Source: a virus. From it: a stretch of 64,000 nt of DNA. This document shows positions 12,695 through 62,945 of the stretch, piece after piece. Where the stretch lies: IMG/VR virus record IMGVR_UViG_3300044910_000908, positions 1 through 64,000 of that record; one strand, given 5' to 3'. The translations under genes and the position numbers were made by a program. Position 1 is the stretch's first letter. Each line of letters begins with the position of its first letter. Below the pieces are notes generated by a model that was not told where the DNA came from, did no database searches, and saw only the letters and a list, made by a program, of their open reading frames with translations.

Positions 12695-13354
12695 TTAATA
12701 CGGATTATAATATTCGTCAGATACAAAAATAATTTTGCTTTCGTCTGTTTTCCACAAATATTCGCCATAAGGTCCATTACATCGAATTTTGTGAGTCCAT
12801 TGCTGATTTTCTACTAATGCATATTTTGCATTACGAATCTCATCGCAAACTTCAGGACCTACTGCTAATATCTCAACCCATTGATCTTTTACATTTTCAT
12901 CATAATCATCTTTGTCAGAAATAATAATGCCACCTTTTGAAATTGGTTGGAATGTGCTTTTTGTTAAATTTGCACAAAATTTAAAAATAACAGCATCAAG
13001 AATTGGATATAATTTTTCACCGTCATCTGTTACAATGAATTGTCGATTAGGAATACTATCTTCAGAAAAAATTCCAAGAATATCTTCTTCTTTCATTAAC
13101 AGAACTTTTCCTTTATTCTCTAATTCAACTTCTTGTCCTGCATATCTACCAAATAATACTTTTTCACCAACATTAATGGAAATTGGTTTTAAACTATTAT
13201 TCTTATCATTAGCTTTACCCTTTCCTATTGCTAATATAACACCAATAGAAGGAGCTTCTTTTGTAATATCTGATGGGATAAAAATACCACCTTCAGATAC
13301 AACTTCTTTTTCATTTCGTTTAACAACAACTTTATCATATAAAGGCTTAATCAT
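12695..13354 (-). CDS. GroES/gp31-like co-chaperonin with two GroES-type domains
   Basis: The 219-aa protein starts at ATG 13354, behind GGAGAAGAAGAAA. An upstream extension is open but hydrophobic and lies inside the Thg1 gene, so I reject it. Residues 1-100 are a GroES fold: MIKPLYDKVVVKR, GGIFIPSDIT, APSIGVILAIGKG, VGEKVLFGRYAG and LLMKEEDILGIF. Residues 110-219 repeat the plan (AVIFKF, KGGIIISDKDDY, WVEILAVGPEV, SKIIFVSDE). Normal GroES is about 97 aa, so this is a tandem. It may cap host GroEL for phage protein folding, as gp31 does in T4. Confidence 0.85.
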   Translation of the reverse strand: MIKPLYDKVVVKRNEKEVVSEGGIFIPSDITKEAPSIGVILAIGKGKANDKNNSLKPISINVGEKVLFGRYAGQEVELENKGKVLLMKEEDILGIFSEDSIPNRQFIVTDDGEKLYPILDAVIFKFCANLTKSTFQPISKGGIIISDKDDYDENVKDQWVEILAVGPEVCDEIRNAKYALVENQQWTHKIRCNGPYGEYLWKTDESKIIFVSDEYYNPY

Positions 13355-14138
13355 TTTCTTCTTCTCCAACAATATTAAAATAAACAGGAACATTATTATA
13401 AAACAAAACATCAACTTTATTAACAATTTTTGTTAATTGATCTATATCTTTTCTGACAATTATTCTGCGACTAATAGGACCTTTAGGATGATGTTCTTCA
13501 GGAATATTTTTTAATTCTTCTTCAGTTAAATATTTTATAACATCTTGTTTAACAAAAATAGAACCTCTTTTTAAATAGTCAGGTAATTTATTCCAATAAT
13601 ATCCAATCGTTTCTAACTTTGCAATTCTTTGTTTAGTATTTAATCCATCTAATTCTGATTGCTTAAAATGAGCATGAGCAACCATATTTACGCTATTTTT
13701 TGCAGCATCCATTTCTCTCCACATTATATTTTCAGTAATAATTTCTAAATTGGGAACTTGCCAAATTCTACAATCAAAAGTTCCCAATTTATCATAATTA
13801 GAACTAAAATAAGCTGAAGCATATCCCGCTAATGAAGAACACAATTTTTGTACTCTTCCATCAAACATATCTAAACTTTCCCAAGCTAAAGTAATTTCAT
13901 CAGATTGAACATAAACAATATCAGCATTAAATTCGTGCAATAAAGATTTTGCAGTATCTTCCATCAATTTAATAAATTCAATATCAAATGGCTTTTCTAA
14001 ATCTCTTGTTAATGTATGAAATGCTCTACCATCTAATCTTGCAATAACAGGTATCCAAGGAATTAAATTACTTTCTGATAAACCTTCAAATTTTTTATGT
14101 TTATCACCCAAATCTTTAAAATCTAAACTATTTTTCAT
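13347..14138 (-). CDS. Thg1-like tRNA guanylyltransferase (3'-5' polymerase family)
   Basis: The 263-aa protein has the Thg1 signature IARLDGRAFHTLTRDLEKPF (residues about 32-51) and VYVQSDEITLAW (near 77-88), with the metal-binding aspartates of the palm. Members add G to the 5' end of tRNA-His or, in bacterial and phage-type TLPs, repair 5'-truncated tRNAs by templated 3'-5' addition. The latter is more likely here but is inference. It has its own promoter (14170-14197) and overlaps the co-chaperonin gene by 8 bp. Confidence 0.88.
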   Translation of the reverse strand: MKNSLDFKDLGDKHKKFEGLSESNLIPWIPVIARLDGRAFHTLTRDLEKPFDIEFIKLMEDTAKSLLHEFNADIVYVQSDEITLAWESLDMFDGRVQKLCSSLAGYASAYFSSNYDKLGTFDCRIWQVPNLEIITENIMWREMDAAKNSVNMVAHAHFKQSELDGLNTKQRIAKLETIGYYWNKLPDYLKRGSIFVKQDVIKYLTEEELKNIPEEHHPKGPISRRIIVRKDIDQLTKIVNKVDVLFYNNVPVYFNIVGEEEND

Positions 14139-21996: not shown

Positions 21997-22024
21997 ATTA
22001 TATCACATTTTTGAAGAATGTAAA
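21997..22024 (-). promoter_or_regulatory. early-type promoter for the vWA gene
   Basis: TTTACA (22019-22024), 16-bp spacer ending TGA, TATAAT (21997-22002), inside the end of the nucleotidase gene on the minus strand. Confidence 0.55.
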
Positions 22025-22503
22025 TAATTTAAAATATCAAATTTAATTTTTGTCATTTCCCAATCACCTGTATGTAAAATACCATTTCCACCCGCTTTAT
22101 CCCATTCTTTAATATTCGTTTCTGCATCATCAATTAAAATATCACCTTTTGTATTAATCCAATGCTTTTTATTTCTTCCGCCTAATACAGTATGAACTTG
22201 AATATCAAAAGATAAATTTAATTTAACCCATTCTTTTTTATCATCTACTGCAGATAATAATTGTTGAGTTGGCAATGGAATAGCTGTTAAAACAAAAATA
22301 TCATATTCATTTTTAAAAGACCAAATATAATCAAAGAATTCTTTAGCTCCAGGTAATACATCTAAATGCAAAAATAAATTAGGAACTAATTCTAAACTAC
22401 TCCAAGAAGTATGCGGAGAATAAGGTTGTCCAGTATGTTCTTTTACAAATTTATGGAAATCAGCAAAACATCCATCAAGATCTAATGCAATTCTTCGTTT
22501 CAT
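22003..22503 (-). CDS. HAD-family 5'(3')-deoxyribonucleotidase
   Basis: The 166-aa protein starts RRIALDLDGCFADFH, the HAD nucleophile motif with two aspartates, and has VLTAIPLP (motif II threonine) and ILIDDAETNIKEWDKAGG (motif IV). This matches the NT5C-like deoxyribonucleotidase family, which removes phosphate from dNMPs and is often used by phages to adjust or clear nucleotide pools. It lies in the nucleotide-metabolism region near nrdA/nrdB and overlaps the 67-aa gene by 4 bp. Confidence 0.8.
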   Translation of the reverse strand: MKRRIALDLDGCFADFHKFVKEHTGQPYSPHTSWSSLELVPNLFLHLDVLPGAKEFFDYIWSFKNEYDIFVLTAIPLPTQQLLSAVDDKKEWVKLNLSFDIQVHTVLGGRNKKHWINTKGDILIDDAETNIKEWDKAGGNGILHTGDWEMTKIKFDILNYLHSSKM

Positions 22504-22717: not shown

Positions 22718-23257
22718 TTAAGATAATAATCCATTAAGAGAAACACAACCATTTGGCAATACATAAGTATTTGATTGTGTTACTATTTCCCATGTTTGGT
22801 GCAAAGGTTTTATTACTTCTATTTTATCAACTTTTAAATAACTTTGTATAGTTTGAATAATTTCTTCTTGATTATTTCTGATATGAGTTAAATGAACTAT
22901 TTCATCACCTTCAGAAAGATTTCTAATTTTAATGAAATCATCTTCTCTTGAGGGATAATGTGCAAGTAGTTTATGGTCTCCAGTGAAACCATATTCGGAA
23001 TCGTCTTCAAATACAACTTTATAGATAGTAGTTAAACCATTATAAAAAACATGTTCAACTAATTCATCACCATCTTCTCCAATTACATAAATTGGTTGAG
23101 GTAATTCATAAATGCGTTTAGATAATTCTGAAAATTGACAATTTTGAAATTCAAAATTTAATTCTCTAAATAATTGAACAATACTAATAGCTCTACTATC
23201 AGCCAAATTTAATTTATTACAACAATCATATAAAGCACTTGTTCCACTAGCTTGCAT
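22718..23257 (-). CDS. Hint (hedgehog/intein)-like protein
   Basis: The 179-aa protein has intein-type blocks without an extein or endonuclease: YKVVFEDDSEYGFTGDHKLLA (near 86-106, block B with the TxxH-like GDH), IRNLSEGDEIVH (near 118) and a C-terminal WEIVTQSNTYVLPNGC-VSLN (block F/G). The N-terminal region has CC at residues 12-13 that could be the block A nucleophile. It follows nrdB by 16 bp. It could be a domesticated or split intein-derived protein, or a Hint-type autoprocessing protein. Splicing is uncertain because the final residues do not fit HN-[CST]. Confidence 0.6.
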   Translation of the reverse strand: MQASGTSALYDCCNKLNLADSRAISIVQLFRELNFEFQNCQFSELSKRIYELPQPIYVIGEDGDELVEHVFYNGLTTIYKVVFEDDSEYGFTGDHKLLAHYPSREDDFIKIRNLSEGDEIVHLTHIRNNQEEIIQTIQSYLKVDKIEVIKPLHQTWEIVTQSNTYVLPNGCVSLNGLLS

Positions 23258-23273: not shown

Positions 23274-24323
23274 TTAAAGAAATTTGGAAAAATCAATATC
23301 AGAAATGTCATTTACAATTGAATTAGATAGATAACTACTAATTTCAGTTTCTTGAGGAGCAACTTGAACATTACTAGAATTAAAATGTTTTTCAATCCAT
23401 GGTAATGGATGACTAATTTTTGCATTTTCAGAAGATAAACCGAGAGTTTTTAATTGTTTTGGTAATAGATAACCATCAATATAAGAAGTCAAAATTTCCT
23501 CATTTAAACCAATAATAGAACCATCTTTAAATAAATGTTGTGCCCAAATAATTTCTTGTTCAGCAGCGGATTTGAAAATATTTTTAGCTTTTTCTCTATT
23601 ATCTCCTATAATTTGAATAAATTCTGGGTCATCTTTAGGAAGTAATTTCAATGTATGCTGAACAAATGCTAAATGTTGAATTTCATCTCTAGCGATTAAT
23701 TTTACAATTTTTCCAGAACCTTCTACTTTAGCTCTTTCAACGAATGAAAATGTTGATGCAAATGACACATAAAAACGAATTGCTTCTAATGCATTAGCCG
23801 CTATTAATGCTAGATATAAATTTTCCTTATTAGGATTATTCACCATTTGATCATAGACTTTCGTGACATCATTTGCACAATCAGCTATTTCTTTTATATT
23901 AGGCATGTCATCTATAACAACTTTAGGGTCATTATAAATTGCTCTCAAAATATAAGTATAAGACATTGAATGAATACTTTCCATGAAAGACCACGTTAAT
24001 AAACAATTTTCCATGGATGGATCTGTACAATGTGGCAAAAATACTAACGCTGGAGCTCTTCCTTGAATGCTATCTAACAAAATCTGTCTTTTTAGATTTT
24101 CAGTAAAAACAAATTGTTCAACATCAGTTAATGAATTAAATGATCTTTTTTCTTGGCTCATATCTATTTCATTTGGGCGCCAGAAAAAACTTTGCATTTT
24201 TTCATTTAATTTATCTAAAATTTCATATCTTGTAATCTCATATCGAGAAATACCATGACCACATTCTCCAAAAAATAATTTATCTGGATGAACTGACATT
24301 GTAAAAACTGAATTATTTGGCAT
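23274..24323 (-). CDS. nrdB: ribonucleotide reductase class Ia small subunit
   Basis: The 349-aa protein is NrdB-like: FWRPNEIDMSQEKRSFN near residue 42, metal ligands in ESIHSMSYTYI (near 115) and RDEIQHLAFVQH (near 207), and the C-terminal IDFSKFL tail that docks on NrdA. It houses the diiron-tyrosyl radical used to reduce ribonucleotides. It is 18 bp after nrdA and followed by the Hint-like gene. A start behind AAGGAGAAAATAAT is clear. Confidence 0.93.
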   Translation of the reverse strand: MPNNSVFTMSVHPDKLFFGECGHGISRYEITRYEILDKLNEKMQSFFWRPNEIDMSQEKRSFNSLTDVEQFVFTENLKRQILLDSIQGRAPALVFLPHCTDPSMENCLLTWSFMESIHSMSYTYILRAIYNDPKVVIDDMPNIKEIADCANDVTKVYDQMVNNPNKENLYLALIAANALEAIRFYVSFASTFSFVERAKVEGSGKIVKLIARDEIQHLAFVQHTLKLLPKDDPEFIQIIGDNREKAKNIFKSAAEQEIIWAQHLFKDGSIIGLNEEILTSYIDGYLLPKQLKTLGLSSENAKISHPLPWIEKHFNSSNVQVAPQETEISSYLSNSIVNDISDIDFSKFL

Positions 24324-24341: not shown

Positions 24342-26600
24342 TTAAACTACACAAGCACCTGATTTACAACCACCTTCTTCAATATTATCAGAAGAACCAT
24401 CATTAACTTGATTGTAATACATAGTACACATTCCCATTTTATATGCAAATAATAAATCCTCAATCAATCTTGACATTTTAATTTCACCTTTAGAAGGGTC
24501 ATACGAAGTGTTGCATGAAATAAATTGATCATTATATTTCTGAAATACTGCAGTAGTTTTCAAGTAATCTTTACTATCAACATTCCACAATGTTTCATAT
24601 AAATGATTTAATTTGTTATATTCAGGAACAACTTGTGGTAATACTCCATCTTTAGAACCTTTAATACTAATTAAATCTCTAGGAGGTTCAATACCATTTG
24701 TCTCATTAGAAATTTGAGATGATGTTTCACTTGGAAAAATTGTTGATAATGTTGCATTTCTAATACCATATTTTTTCAAATCTTCTTTTAATTCATCCCA
24801 TGGCATTAATGGAGCATTAACTGGAATTTTATTTAAATCTCTCGGAACAATACCATCATGATATTTTGTTCTTAATTCAATAGAACCAAATTCTTTTGCT
24901 AATTGATTAGATGCTTGAATTAAATAAAAATTCTGTTTCTCAATCATTGTTTCAGTCGCAAGTAATGCTTCATCTGTACCCCATTGTAATCTTCCTTTTG
25001 CTAACCAATGAGCATAACCAATTAAACCAATGCCTAATGGACGACATAATTTAGTAGCTCTTTCAGCAGCATCAATTGGATATTCTTGATAATCTAATAA
25101 AGCATCTAAAGCTCTAACACCCATTTCACAACAATCTTTTAAAATTCTTTCTTCTTTTTCAGATAAATTCTTACTAAATTTACCCCAATTAGTAGCTAAT
25201 AATGTACATAAATTTAATAATGAATTACCATCTCCAAGCGGAGTTGTTCGCTGTCCAATTTCCGTACATAAATTAGTCATATAAACTGGTTCATAATAAG
25301 GTGTTTGATAATTGACATTATCAGCATTAAAAATATAAATACGTCCAGTTTCATATCTTTCATTCATTAATTTTGTAAAGTATTCAAATGCAGGAATAGT
25401 TTTCTTTACAACTTTATTTGAGTTTTCATATTTTTCATATAATTCTTCAAATTTTTCTAAATCTGGAGAATAAAAAGCTTCATATAAATCTGGAACTTCT
25501 TCAGGGCTAAATAATGTAATATTTCCACCTGTGATTAATCTTTTATACATTGTTCCATTAAGAGCAACAACATAATCTAAAGTTCTAATACGAGTTTCTT
25601 CAGTTCCTTTATTGTTTTTTAATTCAATTAATTTTTCAAATTCTAAATGCCATCCAGGATAATTAATAGAAGCTGAAGCCGACCTAATTCCACCTTGCGA
25701 TACTGCTCTTAAAGAAGAATTCATTAATTTTAAATAAGGAATAACACCAGTTGTAATAGCATCTCCTTGTCTAACTTGTTGTCCTTCAGCACGTAATCTT
25801 CCAATATTTAAACCAATACCAGCTTTTCTTGAAGCATAATCAATAATAGCTGCTGATGTAGCTTTAATAGAATTTAAGCTATCACCACAATCCATTAATG
25901 TGCAAGAAGAAAATTGTTTTACATTAGTTCTTAATCCAGCCATAATAGGTGTAGGAAGAGAAATATAATGTTGGCTAACCAAATCATAAAATTTCTTGAT
26001 GTATCCCATACGAGTAGCAATTGGGTACGCGCCAAATAATAATGCTGGAACTAAAATATAAGGGAATTGAAATGTTTCATATACATGTTTAGTTTTTCTA
26101 TTTTGAACTAAATATTTTTTACGCATTTGTTCTGAACCTGCATAACGAAATAAATCATCTCTATTATGGTCAATCATATCATTTAAAATATTAAATTCTT
26201 CTTCATTATAAAATTCTAATAATTCTTTAGTATAAACACCTAATGCCACATTTTTCTTAACAACATCATATAAATGAGGTGGTGTATTAGAACCAAATGC
26301 TTCTTTACGAATAGATAACCAATTTAATCTAGCAGCAACATGATCATAATTTGGAGTATCTTCATTAATTAAATCTGCAGATGCTTTAATTAAAGTTTGG
26401 TGAATTGAAGAAGTTTTAATATTTGGAACGAAATGTGGATTAGCTGTCATTTCAATTTGAGAAACAGATACGCCTTTAATTGGTGGAAAAATATCATCTC
26501 CATTACATGCCCAATTAATCACTTGATGAATTTTAGAAAGATCTAATAGTTCTTTTGTTCCATTTCGTTTAGTAACAAATATATTACTGGTTTGAGTCAT
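24342..26600 (-). CDS. nrdA: ribonucleotide reductase class Ia large subunit
   Basis: The 752-aa protein is a full-length NrdA. The ATP cone is near the N-terminus (FVTKRNGTKELLDLSKIH). The active-site cysteines sit in SSCTLMDCGDSLNS (near 230) and NLCTEIGQRTTPLGDG (near 445, Cys-x-Glu), and the redox pair is at the C-terminus (GGCKSGACVV). It converts NDPs to dNDPs. It lies directly downstream of the modification cluster, so expression of dNTP supply and base modification is probably linked. Confidence 0.95.
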   Translation of the reverse strand: MTQTSNIFVTKRNGTKELLDLSKIHQVINWACNGDDIFPPIKGVSVSQIEMTANPHFVPNIKTSSIHQTLIKASADLINEDTPNYDHVAARLNWLSIRKEAFGSNTPPHLYDVVKKNVALGVYTKELLEFYNEEEFNILNDMIDHNRDDLFRYAGSEQMRKKYLVQNRKTKHVYETFQFPYILVPALLFGAYPIATRMGYIKKFYDLVSQHYISLPTPIMAGLRTNVKQFSSCTLMDCGDSLNSIKATSAAIIDYASRKAGIGLNIGRLRAEGQQVRQGDAITTGVIPYLKLMNSSLRAVSQGGIRSASASINYPGWHLEFEKLIELKNNKGTEETRIRTLDYVVALNGTMYKRLITGGNITLFSPEEVPDLYEAFYSPDLEKFEELYEKYENSNKVVKKTIPAFEYFTKLMNERYETGRIYIFNADNVNYQTPYYEPVYMTNLCTEIGQRTTPLGDGNSLLNLCTLLATNWGKFSKNLSEKEERILKDCCEMGVRALDALLDYQEYPIDAAERATKLCRPLGIGLIGYAHWLAKGRLQWGTDEALLATETMIEKQNFYLIQASNQLAKEFGSIELRTKYHDGIVPRDLNKIPVNAPLMPWDELKEDLKKYGIRNATLSTIFPSETSSQISNETNGIEPPRDLISIKGSKDGVLPQVVPEYNKLNHLYETLWNVDSKDYLKTTAVFQKYNDQFISCNTSYDPSKGEIKMSRLIEDLLFAYKMGMCTMYYNQVNDGSSDNIEEGGCKSGACVV

Positions 26601-26626: not shown

Positions 26627-27931
26627 TTAAAATTGAATAATTTGCTTTTGTTTGTTAATATTACAAAATTCAGCATCGTTTGTGATTTGCGAAATAGGAG
26701 CCATGGCTCTTTTTAAAGCGGTTGTTTTATTTGTTTTATTTCTTTCAAAAACATTAAATTGGCAACAACTTATTTCTATACCAAAGGTAGTAAAACGACC
26801 TAATTCTGAAGCTTCTTTTAAATGGATTTCAGCTTGAGTATTTCCAGCTATTTCAAAAAAATCTTCTTGATGATTTCTAATAGCTATAATATATTTCATC
26901 ATTGCTTCAGTATTAATTGGCATATCAGGAAATAGTTTTTTTAATGTTGCAGTAGCACCAGGACCAGCAACAACATAATCAGCATTTTCATCTAAATTTC
27001 CATGTGTTAAACTTTTGTCTTTATTTTGTAATTTTTTAAAATCATCATAATATTCAGCATCTATTAATTCAGAACTACCAATTCCTGGCATCCTAGCTAA
27101 GTTTGAAGAAAAATGATATCCATAATAATTTCCAATTCCTCTTTCAAGAGTTAAAAAATTAAAAGATTGTTCCATTGTTGGTTTATTCTTAAAAAATGGC
27201 ACCCATTTTTTAGATAAATATTTGACCCAATGAATCATATCAGATGGACGCATTTTTCTTTCTTGGTGTTCTTTTAATAAATTTAATTCAGTGATTAATT
27301 TATTACTGTTATTAATATTTAGTATGTCAATAGATGATGGATTTTCTCTACAATAATTTCTAGCAGCTATTTGCAAACTTGTTCTTAATTCTGTTGTTCC
27401 CCATATTTTTTCTTTATTAGCAAAAGCTTTTTCTACATTAGACATTAATGTAAATTCATAATCCATATCTTTTTCTAATAAATCAAAATTGATATATTTT
27501 GAATTAGTTGGAATTAAATAATTTAAATCTTCAGCAGTTCCTGTAATAATATCTAAAGTTCTTGCTGGTCCATAAAATTTTACAATTGCAGAATTTATTA
27601 GTTTATCCTCAAAACTAACATTATCTTCATAATATAAATGGGAATTTAACCAAATAATTTCATCATGAAATGATCTATTTGGATGGAAGTATGGAACAGG
27701 TTTATTATCAACAACAAAACCATATCCAAATCCTTTTTGATGTTTATATAATTTTGAAATATAATCTTCAAAAGTTTTAGCTTGCTGTTTATTTATCCTT
27801 ACTTCCCATTCCCGCTTATTGAATTCTTTTATAAAATTTGCTAATTGTTTTTTTACTGTTTTATCTGCAAATGACAATATTTTTTCATCAGACATATTTT
27901 TAATATCGTTGTTAGAAAGTAATGATGCCAT
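26627..27931 (-). CDS. HMUDK_hel / aGPT-PPlase2-family DNA base hypermodification protein
   Basis: The 434-aa protein matches, from memory, a family tied to thymine hypermodification in phages (5-hmdU kinase helical domain, formerly alpha-glutamyl/putrescinyl thymine pyrophosphorylase). Signature blocks in order are TLERGIGNYYGYHFSSNLA (near 258), DYVVAGPGATATLKKLF (near 322) and TFGIEISCCQFNVFER (near 395). No P-loop is present, so any kinase step would need another protein. Its end, KQKQIIQF, matches the proposed clamp-binding peptide. It overlaps the methyltransferase-like gene by 20 bp and precedes nrdA by 26 bp. Family call is good; the exact reaction is not known. Confidence 0.68.
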   Translation of the reverse strand: MASLLSNNDIKNMSDEKILSFADKTVKKQLANFIKEFNKREWEVRINKQQAKTFEDYISKLYKHQKGFGYGFVVDNKPVPYFHPNRSFHDEIIWLNSHLYYEDNVSFEDKLINSAIVKFYGPARTLDIITGTAEDLNYLIPTNSKYINFDLLEKDMDYEFTLMSNVEKAFANKEKIWGTTELRTSLQIAARNYCRENPSSIDILNINNSNKLITELNLLKEHQERKMRPSDMIHWVKYLSKKWVPFFKNKPTMEQSFNFLTLERGIGNYYGYHFSSNLARMPGIGSSELIDAEYYDDFKKLQNKDKSLTHGNLDENADYVVAGPGATATLKKLFPDMPINTEAMMKYIIAIRNHQEDFFEIAGNTQAEIHLKEASELGRFTTFGIEISCCQFNVFERNKTNKTTALKRAMAPISQITNDAEFCNINKQKQIIQF

Positions 27932-28685
27932 TTATTTTTTTTCTCCGTTTCCAAATTCTAGGTAAACTATTAAAACCTTTATGAACGAGTTCAAATTCTT
28001 CGTTTATTATTTGTTTTGCTAATCGTTGGGTTTGTCTACCAGTTAAAATAGTAGTATCATATTTATATTTTTCAAAATGGCCATAACACGAAGGTGAACT
28101 AAAGCTTGCAGTTTCTATTAAATAGTTAGTTGACAAATCCATACAACTTTTTATAAAATCAAATGGGTCCTCAAAATGTTCAAAGGTTTCTAAACACAAT
28201 ACAACATCAAACTTTTCATCTTTTGGAAATTCATAAAAATTAATATTTTTATTATCAGAATGTAAAGAACACCATTTTTCACAACAAGAAATCTGATGGT
28301 CTACATTATTGAATGTATAAACTTGTTTAAAATTTGATTGCAATAATTTTTCAGTTGTAAATCCTAAACCATTAAAAATATCAATAATAGAATATTCAGA
28401 TAAATCAATATTATTTTTCTTAAAATAATTATTGAGTGCCCAAATACTATTATTTGAAGATACAAAAAAGCACCAAATACATTCTAATAAGTAATCTGTG
28501 GTAGAATAGATAGAAAAATCTGTTCTTTTAGAATTTACCCATAATTCACCTAATTTATCTGAATTTATTTTTAATGCATTATAAAGTTCTTTTTTTGAAT
28601 TAGAATTTAATAAAATTTCATTATCTTTTAATTCCGGAACACAAGCAATAATATTATCTATAAAATTTTTATGACTAAGCTTCAT
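27912..28685 (-). CDS. class I SAM-methyltransferase-like protein
   Basis: The 257-aa protein has a Rossmann-type core: YSIIDIFNGLGFTTEKLL (near 97-114, motif I, with a degraded glycine loop), VYTFNNVDHQ (motif II) and FDVVLCLETFEHFEDPF (near 160, motif IV). The fold suggests SAM-dependent transfer, but the atypical motif I leaves room for another Rossmann reaction. It ends KINGIITF, the proposed clamp peptide. Those codons overlap the start of the next gene, so both frames are constrained. It belongs to the base-modification cluster. Confidence 0.65.
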   Translation of the reverse strand: MKLSHKNFIDNIIACVPELKDNEILLNSNSKKELYNALKINSDKLGELWVNSKRTDFSIYSTTDYLLECIWCFFVSSNNSIWALNNYFKKNNIDLSEYSIIDIFNGLGFTTEKLLQSNFKQVYTFNNVDHQISCCEKWCSLHSDNKNINFYEFPKDEKFDVVLCLETFEHFEDPFDFIKSCMDLSTNYLIETASFSSPSCYGHFEKYKYDTTILTGRQTQRLAKQIINEEFELVHKGFNSLPRIWKRRKKINGIITF

Positions 28686-29073
28686 GTCTTACATTTTCCT
28701 TCTCAGTTAAATTATGATCTAAATGTATTACATTAAGCCAAGAACCACAATTTTGCTCAATTATATTTTTTTGAATAGGGTCATCTTCAAAATGACAATT
28801 AATTTTAATTCCAATATTTTTCAATTTATTCAAAACTTGAGCTTTATGCATTCCAGAACTTTCTCTAGTTTTTTCATGAAATTGCAAATTGTTAAAAAAT
28901 ACTTTATTAAAAATATTTCTTTTTTCTAGCATTGAAATTGTTTCAACGTATTCTTCAAAAGACCTACCAGTAATAATAATATCATTAGGACCTGGATAAA
29001 CTCCTTCGATAGAGTTATTAATAAAAATAACTCCATCGATATCGTAACTATTAATAGGGGAATGATTAAACAT
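28675..29073 (-). CDS. HAD-like phosphatase, short
   Basis: The 132-aa protein has HAD motifs: NSYDIDGVIFIN (near 8-19), IIITGRSFEEY (near 32-42, motif II threonine) and CHFEDDPIQKN (near 93, motif IV). It resembles phosphatase domains of polynucleotide kinase-type HADs but lacks a cap. It starts 1 bp after the inositol-phosphate synthase gene, so dephosphorylating the inositol phosphate is an attractive but unproven role. Confidence 0.68.
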   Translation of the reverse strand: MFNHSPINSYDIDGVIFINNSIEGVYPGPNDIIITGRSFEEYVETISMLEKRNIFNKVFFNNLQFHEKTRESSGMHKAQVLNKLKNIGIKINCHFEDDPIQKNIIEQNCGSWLNVIHLDHNLTEKENVRHEA

Positions 29074-30285
29074 TTATTCTCCTATCAATCTCAAATAATC
29101 CATTCCACCGCTATTATATTCATCCCATGCAAATTTAATTGCATCTTCAGGAGTTGTTTGTTTACTAGTAATATCTGTTAATTGACGATTAGCTAATGCT
29201 TCGCATTCTTTATAAGATAAATCATAAGTTAATTGTTTAGGCGGAGATTTTTGAGTAAACGCAGAAGGTCCTCTTAAACAACCAATAATTCCCATTTCTT
29301 TTGCAACTTTAATATATCTTAAAGCATCAATTACAACACCACTAGAATTTTCTGAATCTTGAACAGATAATTTAACATCTACAGTAATTGGAGCATCTCC
29401 AAAACCTCTAAGATGTAAATTAAAGTAAGCAATTTTATTATCTTTTAAATAAGGAATAAAAGTTGAAGGACCAGCAAATAAAGCATCGTCATCAACAGGA
29501 ATTCCTCTTAAATCATTTTGTGCTCTAATAACATTTTCTTTTGATACTTTTTTATGTTTTAATCTTGTTTGAACCATCATATTATTAAAATCGGTATTAC
29601 CTCCAACGTTTAATTGTTGATGATAATCAACTATCATACCTCGACTAAATGCTAGTTCTTGTAACATTTGAGATAAAATAGAAGCTCCAAATTGAGATTT
29701 CATATCAGAACCAATATAAGGAATGCCAGCACTAATAAATTTTTCTTCCCATTTAGGATGATTTAATGTTAATACAGGAATACAATTCAAAAATGAAATT
29801 TTATGTTCAATACATTTTTCAGCCCACCATTCAGTTGCATTTTGAGAACCTACTGGCAAGTAATTGATAATAATTTCAACGCCTGTTTCTTTTAGAATTT
29901 TATCAATATCACAAACATCTTCATTAGAAATTCTGAAACCCATTCTTTCTGGTTGAGTTTGCATATAATCAGAAACACCGTCTAATACTGGACCCATATT
30001 AACAATTGGGCCATCAGGAACATCTTTACAAAATACTCTAGCGCAATTAGGTTGAGCAAAAATAGCTTCGCCTACTGGACGACCAACTTTTCTTCTATCA
30101 ACATCAAAAGCTGCTACTACTTGAATATCAGCAGGATGATAACCTCCAATTCTGTCAAACATAACACCGGGAATAGAATTTCCTTCAGCATCTTCATCAT
30201 GATCTTTATAATATTCAAGGCCTTGATAAAGAGAAGAAAAACAATTACCAACACCAACTACACAAACTTTAATTTTTTTTGACAT
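29074..30285 (-). CDS. ino1: inositol-3-phosphate synthase (Ino1-type)
   Basis: The 403-aa protein is a clear match to actinobacterial/archaeal-type inositol-phosphate synthase. It has the NAD-binding loop VVGVGNCFSSLYQGLEYY (near 9-26), AAFDVDRRKVG, INYLPVGSQNATEWWAEKC, SDMKSQFGASILS, QLNVGGNTDFNNM, SSGVVIDALRYIKVA and SPPKQLTYD. It turns glucose-6-phosphate into 1D-myo-inositol-3-phosphate with NAD+. Full length and all signature blocks are kept, so it is probably active. In a phage, beside HAD, methyltransferase-like and base-modification genes, its product is likely a precursor for a DNA or surface modification. Confidence 0.9.
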   Translation of the reverse strand: MSKKIKVCVVGVGNCFSSLYQGLEYYKDHDEDAEGNSIPGVMFDRIGGYHPADIQVVAAFDVDRRKVGRPVGEAIFAQPNCARVFCKDVPDGPIVNMGPVLDGVSDYMQTQPERMGFRISNEDVCDIDKILKETGVEIIINYLPVGSQNATEWWAEKCIEHKISFLNCIPVLTLNHPKWEEKFISAGIPYIGSDMKSQFGASILSQMLQELAFSRGMIVDYHQQLNVGGNTDFNNMMVQTRLKHKKVSKENVIRAQNDLRGIPVDDDALFAGPSTFIPYLKDNKIAYFNLHLRGFGDAPITVDVKLSVQDSENSSGVVIDALRYIKVAKEMGIIGCLRGPSAFTQKSPPKQLTYDLSYKECEALANRQLTDITSKQTTPEDAIKFAWDEYNSGGMDYLRLIGE

Positions 30286-30323
30286 ATATAATCCTCTTTT
30301 TGTTTAAAACATTATTTACTTTT

Positions 30324-31361
30324 TTAAAATGTTACAATTTTATTAAATTGCTTAATTTCTGGTATATTAGGTTTATTATTCCAATAATCCCATCTATGAT
30401 ATAGAGGTGCTAAATGAACATTTTTTGGACGTTCCATATAAGTGTTCATATAATCTATAGGTGATATTATAAACATTTCTTGTGTTCTTGTAAACAGTTT
30501 CCAATTATTTTTTTCACATAATTGTTTTAATTTATTGTTAAAATATTCCATGATAATAGTTCTTTCTTTTTGAGAACCATAAAAAGGAGTATTTTCAAAA
30601 AATCCAGTTTTTGGAATTCTTCTAGATTCATCTTCAATAGGTAATAATTCAACTAATTCAATATTTTGAATATTTAAATCTAATAATTGGCGTTCATATT
30701 CTAATAATATTTCATCTATTTCTTTTTTTGGATCAGAATTTCTAAGTATATGATGTCTTATATCTATATTACCCCAATAACAAGTAATATAATTTAATTG
30801 AGTAATATCTATATTATTATCTTCTATTTCTTTTTTAATTGTTTTTCTTAAAACACCTTTTAAAGTTCTTCCATCTTTTCTCACAACCATTGCATTTGAA
30901 TAAAATGTTGAAAAACTATGTGAATCACCAATTATCAATTTATCAGTATTAGGATTTAAATAATATTCTTTAACTTCTAAACATTTTTTTGAAATTGCTT
31001 CCCAATCTATAGCTTTCCAATAATCATCTGCTGTTTTTCTACTTGAACATAGAAATCCATAATCAGGCATTGGCATATCTAATGATATTAATTTTGCTGA
31101 AGTTGTTCCAATTCTTTCATAAAATTTAGCGTTTTCTATTGTAGCACCACCAAATAAATTTAAAGAACCTTTAAATTCCATTCCATGATATAAATAAATT
31201 TCGTCATAATTATTCCAATCTTCATTATTATGTAAGACTTCAACTTGTTTATTCAATTCTTTAGATAATTGACAAGCTCTTAAATGAGCCCATGCATTTT
31301 TATGAGAATATTTTGAATTAGTTAATTTTCCACTTACTAAATCTATAGCAATTTTAGTCAT
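30324..31361 (-). CDS. SGNH/GDSL-hydrolase-like protein in the modification cluster
   Basis: The 345-aa protein has a serine motif IIGDSHSFSTF (near 143-153), a conserved YITCYWGNIDIRHH (near 187) and a late NVHLAPLYHRWDYW (near 318) that could supply the Asp/His pair of an SGNH fold. The role could be esterase, transferase or sugar-handling; I cannot choose. It ends FNKIVTF, the fifth copy of the C-terminal peptide seen in the polymerase and flap nuclease. It is the upstream-most gene of the inositol cluster, 38 bp before ino1. Confidence 0.6.
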   Translation of the reverse strand: MTKIAIDLVSGKLTNSKYSHKNAWAHLRACQLSKELNKQVEVLHNNEDWNNYDEIYLYHGMEFKGSLNLFGGATIENAKFYERIGTTSAKLISLDMPMPDYGFLCSSRKTADDYWKAIDWEAISKKCLEVKEYYLNPNTDKLIIGDSHSFSTFYSNAMVVRKDGRTLKGVLRKTIKKEIEDNNIDITQLNYITCYWGNIDIRHHILRNSDPKKEIDEILLEYERQLLDLNIQNIELVELLPIEDESRRIPKTGFFENTPFYGSQKERTIIMEYFNNKLKQLCEKNNWKLFTRTQEMFIISPIDYMNTYMERPKNVHLAPLYHRWDYWNNKPNIPEIKQFNKIVTF

Positions 31362-31559: not shown

Positions 31560-31745
31560 TTAATCTCCAATTTCTCGTGCTTCTCTAATTGCTTTAAGCA
31601 AATCTTTAGCAAATTTTATATATTGTTCGCCAGAAATTGTTGTTTCATTAATAATTGAAGGTCCATAAATTTTACATAAAAATTGAGTAATATCAATATT
31701 ATCAACATCTACACCTTCTTCATAATTCTTAATCACTGCTATCAT
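31560..31745 (-). CDS. hypothetical protein, 61 aa
   Basis: A helical acidic protein starting after ACAGGAGATAATT and overlapping the upstream gene by 17 bp. Unknown; part of the MazG-to-nrd transcription unit. Confidence 0.5.
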   Translation of the reverse strand: MIAVIKNYEEGVDVDNIDITQFLCKIYGPSIINETTISGEQYIKFAKDLLKAIREAREIGD

Positions 31746-32481
31746 AATTATCTCCTGTATATAATCTAACCATTGACATATTTTGTTCTTTTGAGTATTT
31801 TAAAAAAGCACTTAATATACTTTCATTAGGAGCTATTTTACAAGAAGTTCCCACAATCCCACCTTTCCATGAATTCTTTTTTGGTCCAACTTCTTTGGTA
31901 TAAGTAATATCTACTTCTCGTTTAACAAAATCTTTTTTGAAATATTGTAACCAACACATTATACCAGAACCATGAGTCCAAACTCTTTCTTCCAAATAAC
32001 ATGTCACTATATTATCTTCACCATCATAATCTTTAAATTCTATTTTTACAGGTTTAATAGATTGTTTGATAATTTCTTTAGCACCAAAATCCCATTTTGC
32101 TCTTTTTTTAAAACAACTAAAGTCATTATAAATAATTCCTGCTAAAGAACCATCACCATGATATAATGACCATTTTGCAAAATGCATTCGTTTCCATGGA
32201 ATATCAAAAACTTTGCATTGACTTTGACCAAAGCCTTTTTCATCTTGAATTCCATAATAAATTAAAAAACTATCATCACATGTTGTAATATAATAACTAC
32301 GAGGACATATTCTACCATAATACTTATTTGAATAACTATTCAATTCTTTTTCAATATGAGCTGGAATTATCCAATTTGGAATTTTTAAAAAGTATTCTTT
32401 ATTATGCCCATATTGAAAGAATATTTTTGCATATTCTCGTTCTTCAGTTCGAGATTTAATACCTATTCTAAATTCTTTCAT
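31729..32481 (-). CDS. conserved phage protein of unknown function, 250 aa
   Basis: I place the start at ATG 32481 (MKEFRIGIKSRTEER), since the earlier in-frame Met lies inside the upstream gene. The blocks IPNWIIPAHIEKE, FDIPWKRMHF, GAKEIIKQSIKP and KEVGPKKNSWKGG with CKIAPNESILSAF recall a family common in many tailed phages. It is uncharacterised. It is basic, with no membrane segment. Confidence 0.65.
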   Translation of the reverse strand: MKEFRIGIKSRTEEREYAKIFFQYGHNKEYFLKIPNWIIPAHIEKELNSYSNKYYGRICPRSYYITTCDDSFLIYYGIQDEKGFGQSQCKVFDIPWKRMHFAKWSLYHGDGSLAGIIYNDFSCFKKRAKWDFGAKEIIKQSIKPVKIEFKDYDGEDNIVTCYLEERVWTHGSGIMCWLQYFKKDFVKREVDITYTKEVGPKKNSWKGGIVGTSCKIAPNESILSAFLKYSKEQNMSMVRLYTGDNYDSSD

Positions 32482-32804
32482 TGAAATGACCAAGAAATAT
32501 TTAATTCAGCATCTTGGTCATTTTCATAATTAACATCTGGAATTGAAAATGAACGTGCAGCTGTGTGTTCAGCTTTATAACCATTCTCTTTTAAAGTATT
32601 AATAATGCTAATTAAAGCTGAAGATGTCATTTCCCCAGTTATAACGTGTATATATGAATATTTTCCTTCTGTAGCATATTCCTGAATTTTATCTTCAATA
32701 ACAGATAAATGTCTTTGAATGATTTGTTGTTCTTTATTTTGAATATGTTTATCGGCCAAATCCCTAGCAACAGTAGCTTTTAGCTCAAAAGGTTTAGTTA
32801 TCAT
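32478..32804 (-). CDS. hypothetical protein, 108 aa
   Basis: A mixed alpha/beta protein (KATVARDLADKHIQ, YSYIHVITGEM) that overlaps both neighbours by 4 bp. No family recognised. Confidence 0.55.
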   Translation of the reverse strand: MITKPFELKATVARDLADKHIQNKEQQIIQRHLSVIEDKIQEYATEGKYSYIHVITGEMTSSALISIINTLKENGYKAEHTAARSFSIPDVNYENDQDAELNISWSFQ

Positions 32805-56353: not shown

Positions 56354-57088
56354 TTACTTAGAAAACTTAGCCATTATTTGAGCTACTGCAATAGGAACAG
56401 TTGCTGAACCTCTTCCTCTAAAACAAGTATAAAGTTCTTCAAATTTATATCTTAAATCAGTATATGCTGGAGTTGGATTACATTCATAAATTTTAGCCAT
56501 ATTTGAAGCAGCATTTCTAACTAAATTAGCGGCTGGCCATACTTGACCACTAGTCCCAACTACTAACATAACTAATGAATTATCAGCTGCAGTTTCTGCT
56601 AATTTAAAATCTTGCTCATTTAAATCTTCTCCAAACCAAACCACATTAACTCGCATATTAGCACCACAACAAGAACATATAGGAACTTCTGCTAATTCCC
56701 AATATTCTGCTTCATTAGTAGTATATTCGCAAGTTTGACATCTTAATGCTTTTAAATCTCCATGTAATTCAATTACATTTTTTGAACCTGCTTGTTGATG
56801 AAGTCCATCAATATTTTGGGTAATTAAAAGAAAATCATGTCCTTGTTTTTCTGCCCATTCTTCTAATTTTACTAATTCTTCATGGGCTCTATTAGGTTTA
56901 ATTGTTTTAAGATTATCATATCTTTGTTTATAAAAATCCCAAACTAATTGTGGATTTTTTTGAAATCCTCTTGGAGAAGCAACATCTTCCACTCTATGAT
57001 TTTCCCATAAACCATTATTATCCCTAAACGTTGGAACACCACTTTCTGCTGATACTCCTGCACCAGTAAATACTGTTATATATGACAT
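56354..57088 (-). CDS. Sir2-family NAD-dependent protein deacylase (CobB-like)
   Basis: The 244-aa protein is a complete sirtuin: VFTGAGVSAESGVPTFRDNNG (near 6), LITQNIDGLHQQAG (near 88), catalytic His in VIELHGDLKALRC (near 105), a Cys4 zinc site (RCQTCEYT; ICSCCGANM), VVWFGEDL and VGTSGQVWPAANL. It removes acyl groups from lysines using NAD+, producing O-acetyl-ADP-ribose. CobB-type proteins act as enzymes rather than as the NAD-depleting defence Sir2s. In a phage it could reprogram host proteins or NAD. Start after AAGGAGTTATAAGAAAA. Confidence 0.9.
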   Translation of the reverse strand: MSYITVFTGAGVSAESGVPTFRDNNGLWENHRVEDVASPRGFQKNPQLVWDFYKQRYDNLKTIKPNRAHEELVKLEEWAEKQGHDFLLITQNIDGLHQQAGSKNVIELHGDLKALRCQTCEYTTNEAEYWELAEVPICSCCGANMRVNVVWFGEDLNEQDFKLAETAADNSLVMLVVGTSGQVWPAANLVRNAASNMAKIYECNPTPAYTDLRYKFEELYTCFRGRGSATVPIAVAQIMAKFSK

Positions 57089-57586: not shown

Positions 57587-58168
57587 TTATTTTTTTCTAA
57601 AATCTAAAATTTGTATCTCTTTTTCTAACACTAAACAATTTTCCATTATTGGAGCATTGACAACTTTAAAGTTTTCCGAATTATCATCTTCCTGAATAAC
57701 TTGTCTAACAACCATATGTAAATGACCTAATGCATTAAACCCAACTAATTCACTCCCATCTTCATTTGGTTTGGCGCCCCAAAAATCATCCTTCTTTGAA
57801 ATCTCCACAATATCTCTTGTTCCAGTTTCAATTAATGCATCACGATATTTTTTATGCTGAGCAGCTTTGAGACGTAAACACCAATACATAATTTGAACTC
57901 TATCGTCATCAAAACCTCTATACGTATGCGTTTTCCGATACTTTTTGGATACCATCTTAGCACCCATACCACTTTTCTGTTCTAATATCTCTTGCTGAAT
58001 TTCAGGATGAAACACAAATCTCATCATTTGATAAAGATTTTCTGTTGATGGAACTAAAATGTCTTTAGACAATCTTATCGGAAATCCTCCAGTCATATTA
58101 CCGAATTCACCCCATTTATCTTTTGCTCTAGAAAAAGCACATACCTCTTCAACTTTATAAGTATTCAT
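57587..58168 (-). CDS. NADAR-family (YbiA/DUF1768) protein
   Basis: The 193-aa protein matches NADAR: CAFSRAKDKWGEFGNMTGGF (near 11, cf. FxxxxxxxGxxSNxxxxP), STENLYQMMRFVFHPEIQQEI-type helix (near 46), MGAKMVSKKYR (near 68), QIMYWCLRLKAAQH (near 92) and VEISKKDDFWGAKP (near 122). NADAR enzymes cleave N-glycosidic bonds, and some are reported to remove ADP-ribose from guanine bases. With the macro-domain, Sir2 and DUF4326 genes it forms an ADP-ribose toolkit. It has its own promoter at 58205-58232. Confidence 0.83.
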   Translation of the reverse strand: MNTYKVEEVCAFSRAKDKWGEFGNMTGGFPIRLSKDILVPSTENLYQMMRFVFHPEIQQEILEQKSGMGAKMVSKKYRKTHTYRGFDDDRVQIMYWCLRLKAAQHKKYRDALIETGTRDIVEISKKDDFWGAKPNEDGSELVGFNALGHLHMVVRQVIQEDDNSENFKVVNAPIMENCLVLEKEIQILDFRKK

Positions 58169-62225: not shown

Positions 62226-62945
62226 TTATTTTTCCAATTCTTCTTTTAGAATTCTATTGACTTCAGCAGGAATAAATTTACCTTGACCAGCTTTCATAAT
62301 TCTACCAACAAAAAATCCAATAACCTTTTGATTACCTTCTTTATATTGTTGAACTTCTTTTGGATTTTCAGACATTAATTGATTTACTACACTAACAATA
62401 ACAGAACTATTATCCTGTTGTTCTAATCCTAATTTTTCTAAAATTAAATAAACATATTCATCATTTATTTTCATTTCATCTAGCATTGGCCTAATGTCTT
62501 TTACAACTAATAGTTTATTAGAAATTAATGATAATAATTCAAACAATTTATGTGGTTCAAATTGATATTGGCTAATAACTAATTCTACAAATAATGAAGC
62601 TAATATTTTTCTTTCAACTTGTATCCATTTATCTAATACAATAAACAAGTTAAGATAATAAGCATAAAGTTCAAATAGCGTATTTTTCTTATCTAATGGA
62701 GTCAATTCAGAATAATCTGGAAGATAATCAACAATTAATCCACCAATTCTAATAAGTTCATCTTTAGAAGCTTCTGGCAATAATTCAGCATACACTTGTA
62801 ATAAAGTGCTCATTGTTTGTAATTGCTTGTAATTATCAACAACATTAAATGCTGCTGAACAACTATTAACAGAAGTCAATTGCTGAGAAAAAGATAATTG
62901 AGTATCTGATTTGTTAGATAAAATTTCTTGTTTTAAACTAGTCAT
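62226..62945 (-). CDS. GatB/YqeY-domain protein
   Basis: The last 110 residues of this 239-aa protein match the GatB tail/YqeY domain: YLILEKLGLEQQDNSSVIVS, NQLMSENPKEVQQYKEGNQK, VIGFFVGRIMKAGQGKFIP and EVNRILKEEL. In GatB this domain binds tRNA during amidation of Glu-tRNA-Gln. The first 110 residues are helical and not recognised. No amidotransferase core is present, so a tRNA-binding role is likelier than catalysis. Its start overlaps the 75-aa gene. Confidence 0.78.
   Translation of the reverse strand: MTSLKQEILSNKSDTQLSFSQQLTSVNSCSAAFNVVDNYKQLQTMSTLLQVYAELLPEASKDELIRIGGLIVDYLPDYSELTPLDKKNTLFELYAYYLNLFIVLDKWIQVERKILASLFVELVISQYQFEPHKLFELLSLISNKLLVVKDIRPMLDEMKINDEYVYLILEKLGLEQQDNSSVIVSVVNQLMSENPKEVQQYKEGNQKVIGFFVGRIMKAGQGKFIPAEVNRILKEELEK

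Follow-up and report, generated by a model that had tools for sequence, protein, structure and literature searches.

Phage T4 glucosylates the 5-hydroxymethylcytosine (hmC) of its DNA, and RB69, of the same group, is reported to bear arabinosyl-hmC (PMC6024577). Other described systems hypermodify thymidine with amino acids (M6, ViI, SP10), rely on TET/JBP and associated enzymes, including TAGT glycosyltransferases, or use FolE, QueC, QueE and TGT for 7-deazaguanine. Here we describe five genes, A to E, in a 64,000-nucleotide stretch of viral DNA (the window; positions 1 to 64,000 of IMG/VR record IMGVR_UViG_3300044910_000908), a cassette that likely synthesizes inositol for attachment to hmC in phage DNA. 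Neither base hypermodification nor hmC glycosylation is new as such; a cyclitol substituent and a machine of SGNH and HMUDK_hel proteins are undescribed in the literature we searched. That search returned no paper linking inositol with phage DNA modification, as a first-pass annotation of the window had supposed, and Ino1 may have been mentioned in operons of this type before.

Like T4 and RB69, viruses of this kind carry a gp42-type hydroxymethylase (in related cassettes) and T4-type replication genes (in the window's record, the sliding-clamp loader gp44, a helicase, UvsX and a single-stranded-DNA-binding protein), protein A has an N-terminal domain resembling that of T4 beta-glucosyltransferase (BGT), and the proposed product is a polyhydroxylated ring on hmC. 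Unlike in T4 and RB69, A has no UDP-sugar transferase domain, SGNH and HMUDK_hel proteins being present instead, and the proposed donor, a cyclitol, would come from Ino1 or from import. With the thymidine systems the cassette shares the HMUDK_hel/PPlase superfamily, to which protein E belongs; a second inositol subtype also employs ADDT, together with a P-loop nucleotide kinase. Those systems attach amino acids, however, where we propose inositol, and in the subtype defined by A and E (the A/E subtype) the base is most likely cytosine and E has no P-loop. The ViI pathway, which joins serine via its oxygen, provides a precedent for an oxygen nucleophile. No TET/JBP gene occurs in the window's record or in the A/E-type records tested, and the 7-deazaguanine systems concern a different base, although both kinds of system adjoin inositol genes in other viruses.

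Organization and conservation of the cassette

The first-pass annotation had described five tightly packed genes directly upstream of nrdA and nrdB, and all of these open reading frames (ORFs) were found:

30324-31361, minus strand: protein A, SGNH, 345 aa (ORF)
29074-30285, minus strand: protein B, Ino1, 403 aa (ORF, PF01658)
28675-29073, minus strand: protein C, HAD phosphatase (probable), 132 aa (ORF, phrog_415)
27912-28685, minus strand: protein D, class I S-adenosylmethionine methyltransferase, 257 aa (ORF, Methyltransf_11)
26627-27931, minus strand: protein E, HMUDK_hel, 434 aa (ORF, PF18723)
24342-26600, minus strand: nrdA, class I ribonucleotide reductase (clear Pfam match)
23274-24323, minus strand: nrdB, class I ribonucleotide reductase (clear Pfam match)

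Transcription runs from A through E into nrdA and nrdB, with 38 nt between A and B, 0 nt between B and C, overlaps of 11 nt (C/D) and 20 nt (D/E), and 26 nt between E and nrdA. The reductase genes supply DNA precursors and stand outside the proposed chemistry. Families were assigned by testing the window's proteins against Pfam, PHROGs and NCBIfam; Pfam bore out the earlier family assignments of B, D and E, and gave no confident match for A and none for C. Since most genes of the window lie on the minus strand, the shared direction of the five genes is little evidence for a functional unit. Chance grouping is ruled out by the conservation of the neighborhood in other viruses.

A scan of 2.9 million viral contigs with E alone recovered 59 loci, and 58 of these have Ino1 no more than eight genes away from E. 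The exception, Aeromonas phage 44RR, encodes A and E as one protein beside a sodium/sugar symporter. Protein A is likewise within eight genes of E in 58/59 loci, the remaining locus (L086) beginning at Ino1, and the HAD protein C is found near E in 49/59. A pattern scan of contigs from the genomes of 84,980 species of bacteria and archaea found no E. Between C and E the gene content varies: the window has D, versus an FkbM-type methyltransferase (PF05050) in many relatives, this family occurring near E in 49/59 loci. Two cassettes (L068:6961-7998 and L072:3404-4441) have a T4 BGT-like gene at this position in place of the FkbM methyltransferase, with a PF09198 match (5.1e-6) just under the cut-off. 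A C5-cytosine DNA methylase-like gene (PF00145, 2.5e-17; L099:10854-12068) is near A/E in 17 of the 59 loci.

The Aeromonas phages (Biquartavirus) offer a second view of the same system. Here A and E are fused into a single 795-aa protein (phrog_17781), which argues that the two act together. In a survey of 50,697 public phage records, Ino1 occurs in 18 and C in the identical 18, while E, as part of the A-E fusion, occurs in 19 records, all from Aeromonas phages, and these same 19 also have a vSGLT-like sodium symporter (>80% identity). This symporter lies directly upstream of the fused gene in both Aeromonas genomes inspected, and C is missing from the two symporter genomes tested. The symporter thus replaces Ino1 and C, which fits import of free inositol; it keeps several of what we take to be the vSGLT sugar-site residues and changes others. 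Inositol would then be the simplest common factor of the Ino1 product and the symporter cargo. Judged by gene content, these cassettes look like a recurring DNA base-modification system that is widespread and exists as more than one operon.

Proteins A and E as a candidate transfer machine

Protein E matches PF18723 (HMUDK_hel) at 9.5e-7, above the curated cut-off, as do 19/19 of its relatives. Its predicted structure is essentially all-helical and resembles the helical domain of the SP10 5-hydroxymethyldeoxyuridine (5-hmdU) DNA kinase (probability 1.00, E-value 6.9e-4), so the base-modification family named for E by the first-pass annotation is upheld by both sequence and fold. The fold match to PPlase1 is modest, weaker than those to the helical domains of 5-hmdU DNA kinases. 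E has no match to a kinase family, and a kinase role is ruled out because it lacks a P-loop; in the A/E records searched, the P-loop kinase family PF18751 is not found above its cut-off either. E is thus a superfamily relative of HMUDK that is no kinase. Comparison with ADDT (PF18724) gave no Pfam match and a non-significant hhalign result, so E was rejected as its sequence homologue. Solved structures in the PDB gave nothing significant by sequence or fold, the matches to OGG1 glycosylase being weak and non-significant. The invariant polar residues of E (GTTEL, YYGYH, E386 and C390-Q391) suggest, from their conservation, an active site, and we propose that E is either a DNA-base transferase or a base-binding partner of A.

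Protein A matches phrog_13881 and the N-terminal half of the fusion family phrog_17781. The SGNH-like character noticed earlier holds in its AlphaFold2 model (predicted local distance difference test score 89.7), to which Foldseek assigns an SGNH fold with probability 1.00. Block I (GDSH, 145-148) is invariant in homologues. The block III region reads GNID (197-200) where the canonical form is GxND, and His316 is at least 90% conserved, with no conserved Asp three residues before it as in the canonical block V (DxxH). In turn, hhalign pairs residues 1-95 with the N-terminal domain of T4 BGT (94.5%, score 53.7); across 152 unrelated control comparisons the best score was 24.0 and the probability at most 4.7%, and the BGT-like protein from one of the cassette loci scored 38.1. 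The NLFGG motif of this domain resembles NFFGG of BGT. A shared D-x3-P pattern places one residue of A opposite the catalytic Asp100 of BGT; homologues have D, N or A there, and the C-terminal half of A is SGNH, with no UDP-glucose-binding domain like that at the C-terminus of T4 BGT. For these two reasons A is not a glucosyltransferase, and we propose that it acts on hmC or on the substituent of hmC in DNA.

Whether A takes part in the transfer itself or acts afterwards is the question on which the rival we take most seriously turns, although we lean against it. In this rival, E attaches the inositol and A is a tailoring enzyme that then transfers an acyl group or removes an ester, which is compatible with inositol on hmC. 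The best Foldseek matches of A are esterases, thioesterases and the O-acetyltransferase PatB, and an A homologue from Aeromonas phage 25 that has no E nearby would fit acylation of a sugar borne on hmC. On the other side, A is as constant as E where the other tailoring genes vary, and it carries the BGT-like domain. The phage 25 locus (L126:5776-9047) places its A homologue beside a UDP-galactopyranose mutase (PF03275, 5e-54) and a 358-aa protein, and is a candidate galactofuranosyl-hmC system. The 358-aa neighbor was considered as a BGT homologue, and the comparison gave no support.

The acceptor base

Related cassettes and records carry a gene of the thymidylate synthase family, the closest sharing about 60% identity with dCMP hydroxymethylases of the T4 type. 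In all readable gp42-type proteins of the A/E subtype, the residue corresponding to D179 of T4 gp42 is Asp, a mark of specificity for dCMP rather than dUMP; the sole Asn at this position is in L040, a contig outside the assigned types. Because the hydroxymethylases are of the dCMP type and a T4 BGT-like gene occurs in two cassettes, the acceptor in the A/E subtype is, on these sequence features, most likely hmC and not thymine. For the window's own phage we infer the base from these related cassettes.

Thymine, modified via 5-hydroxymethyluracil, is an unlikely acceptor in the window's phage. PF18723 is named for a 5-hmdU DNA kinase, the 81-kb record that contains the window has no detectable hydroxymethylase of the thymidylate synthase family (gp42), the record being a fragment, and the TET/JBP subtype described below probably acts on thymine. 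Yet the A/E-subtype records carry dCMP-type hydroxymethylases, and the N-terminal domain of A resembles an hmC-specific enzyme. Residue 179 of gp42 and this BGT-like domain led us to set thymine aside for now as the A/E-subtype acceptor.

Proposed inositol supply and methylation

The full-length inositol-3-phosphate synthase of the first-pass annotation is confirmed in B, which matches PF01658 at 3.3e-21 and aligns over nearly its whole length (residues 2-362) with the Ino1 structure 1gr0 at 5.1e-85. By homology B is an inositol-3-phosphate synthase (MIPS/Ino1), with its activity predicted. C matches a polynucleotide-kinase family of PHROGs (phrog_415, 1.6e-8), and its HAD motifs (D11xD13, T35-G36-R37, K77 and D97-D98) are invariant across 21 relatives, in agreement with the HAD-like phosphatase first noted; it is probably an inositol-phosphate phosphatase of the small HAD type. 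D, likewise recognized correctly as a class I methyltransferase-like protein, matches Methyltransf_11 at 7.9e-6 and has a UbiG-like region.

It is quite improbable that the attached group is another cyclitol or an inositol derivative, such as an inositol phosphate or a five-membered cyclitol, rather than free inositol. The second PDB relative of B is 6k96, a synthase of a five-membered-cyclitol phosphate (1.8e-52), and against the NCBIfam mycothiol_INO1 equivalog TIGR03450 B scores 317 of 638 bits, under the cut-off, which makes it a relative and not a member; C, moreover, is unseen near E in 10/59 loci. B is nevertheless far closer to 1gr0, and the import variant, without C in the two genomes tested, favors an unphosphorylated polyol.

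Ino1 and HAD in other base-modification settings

A separate scan of viral contigs with Ino1 gave 37 loci. Most of them have a second arrangement, in which Tet_JBP (7e-24) and ADDT (4.9e-35) adjoin Ino1, HAD and a P-loop nucleotide kinase 3 (3.9e-13). Beside its Ino1, Caulobacter phage Cr30 encodes ADDT (1.3e-52) as well as a gene whose weak TAGT-like match (8.5e-4) falls below the cut-off. Since Cr30 carries a Tet_JBP gene and its complete genome has no C5-cytosine methylase, the hydroxylated base there is probably thymine. In a third arrangement Ino1 occurs with FolE, QueC and TGT; in Menderavirus (L001:11201-16615), Ino1 and HAD are inserted between folE and queC/TGT/queE, which suggests that inositol may decorate 7-deazaguanine in that virus.

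The three settings interleave in the phylogeny of Ino1, requiring eight changes where two would be the minimum, and the window's Ino1 is nested in a starred group whose other sequences are of the QUE and ADDT types. This interleaving indicates that Ino1 has moved repeatedly between DNA base-modification systems. On balance we favor the view that Ino1 and HAD form a plug-in module for at least three chassis, namely hmC via A/E, hydroxymethyl-pyrimidine via TET-ADDT-kinase, and 7-deazaguanine, which would define a family of inositol-bearing nucleobases and make A/E an unrecognized type of DNA transferase.

The first-pass annotation had named a lipid or cell-surface role as the main alternative, and bacterial Ino1 usually feeds mycothiol or phosphatidylinositol, the best PDB match of B being an actinobacterial-type Ino1; even so, a role of phage inositol in host lipid, cell-surface or osmolyte metabolism, with the base-modification neighbors incidental, is very improbable and was rejected as the main reading, as Ino1 accompanies three kinds of DNA-modification genes and has been re-associated between them, the annotated neighborhoods hold no recurrent lipid gene, and the fused A-E gene of Aeromonas phages is accompanied by a symporter and not by Ino1.

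Proposed pathway and the points against it

That inositol, dephosphorylated by the HAD protein, is attached to a 5-substituted pyrimidine had been suggested at the outset. The suggestion is supported, because E falls in a base-modification superfamily, Ino1 and HAD recur in three kinds of base-modification loci and a sugar/polyol symporter replaces them where they are missing, with hmC instead of thymine as the most likely base and the linkage being predicted. Gene content, families, linkage, co-occurrence and the A-E fusion can be read directly from sequence; the substrates, the bond formed, the order of steps and the role in restriction evasion are predictions drawn from them. B (Ino1) would convert glucose-6-phosphate to inositol phosphate, and C would release free inositol. 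Cytosine would be hydroxymethylated as a nucleotide by a gp42-type dCMP hydroxymethylase and then incorporated. A and E, working as one machine on DNA, would join inositol to the hydroxymethyl group of hmC, A contributing the BGT-like base-binding domain and the SGNH domain, and E the helical protein. D (FkbM type in relatives) may then O-methylate the product, capping a hydroxyl, to leave 5-(inositol-O-methyl)cytosine that is partly methylated. Such an inositol ether of hmC is an isomer of glucosyl-hmC, and, like glucosyl-hmC in T4, it would shield phage DNA against restriction.

Several points weigh against inositol on hmC as we propose it. The gp42 gene is missing from the window's record, which is a fragment, and 44RR is among the loci in which C is absent near E. 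The loci found with E share ancestry, so they do not count as independent events. The symporter looks like a sugar transporter, and inositol is its putative cargo. We identified no activating kinase for the A/E subtype, unlike the subtype with the P-loop kinase. The product of B could be another cyclitol, given its sub-equivalog score and its relation to 6k96. Finally, the case for inositol on DNA is built from sequence comparisons, and its chemistry is predicted.

Neighboring genes

The record to which the window belongs has 81,067 bases. Just upstream of the cassette is a protein of the Acb3 family (31729-32493, minus strand; PF25187, 3.4e-34), an inhibitor of the cyclic-oligonucleotide-based antiphage signaling system (CBASS), and genes that counter restriction and genes that counter CBASS may thus be grouped here. 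The ORF after nrdB (22718-23257, minus strand) has a sub-threshold match to an intein-splicing (Hint-like) family (PF14890, 5.4e-4), and downstream of the reductase genes lies a 5'(3')-deoxyribonucleotidase-like protein (22003-22503, minus strand; PF06941, 6.5e-7). The same record encodes Thg1-like, Sir2-like, NADAR and GatB/Yqey domain proteins (window positions 13347-14138, 56354-57088, 57587-58168 and 62226-62945, respectively).

Implications for T4-related phages

The T4-related phages 44RR, 31 and 25 have gene 42 and lack the glucosyltransferase gene, and a review calls it not known whether such phages modify Hm-dCMP in some other way (PMC2993671). Our analysis offers inositol on hmC as a candidate modification for 44RR and 31 and points to a possible galactofuranose-type system for phage 25. 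If true, cyclitol-bearing DNA would add a new chemical class to the natural base modifications, and it bears on how phages evade restriction and on modification-dependent defence.

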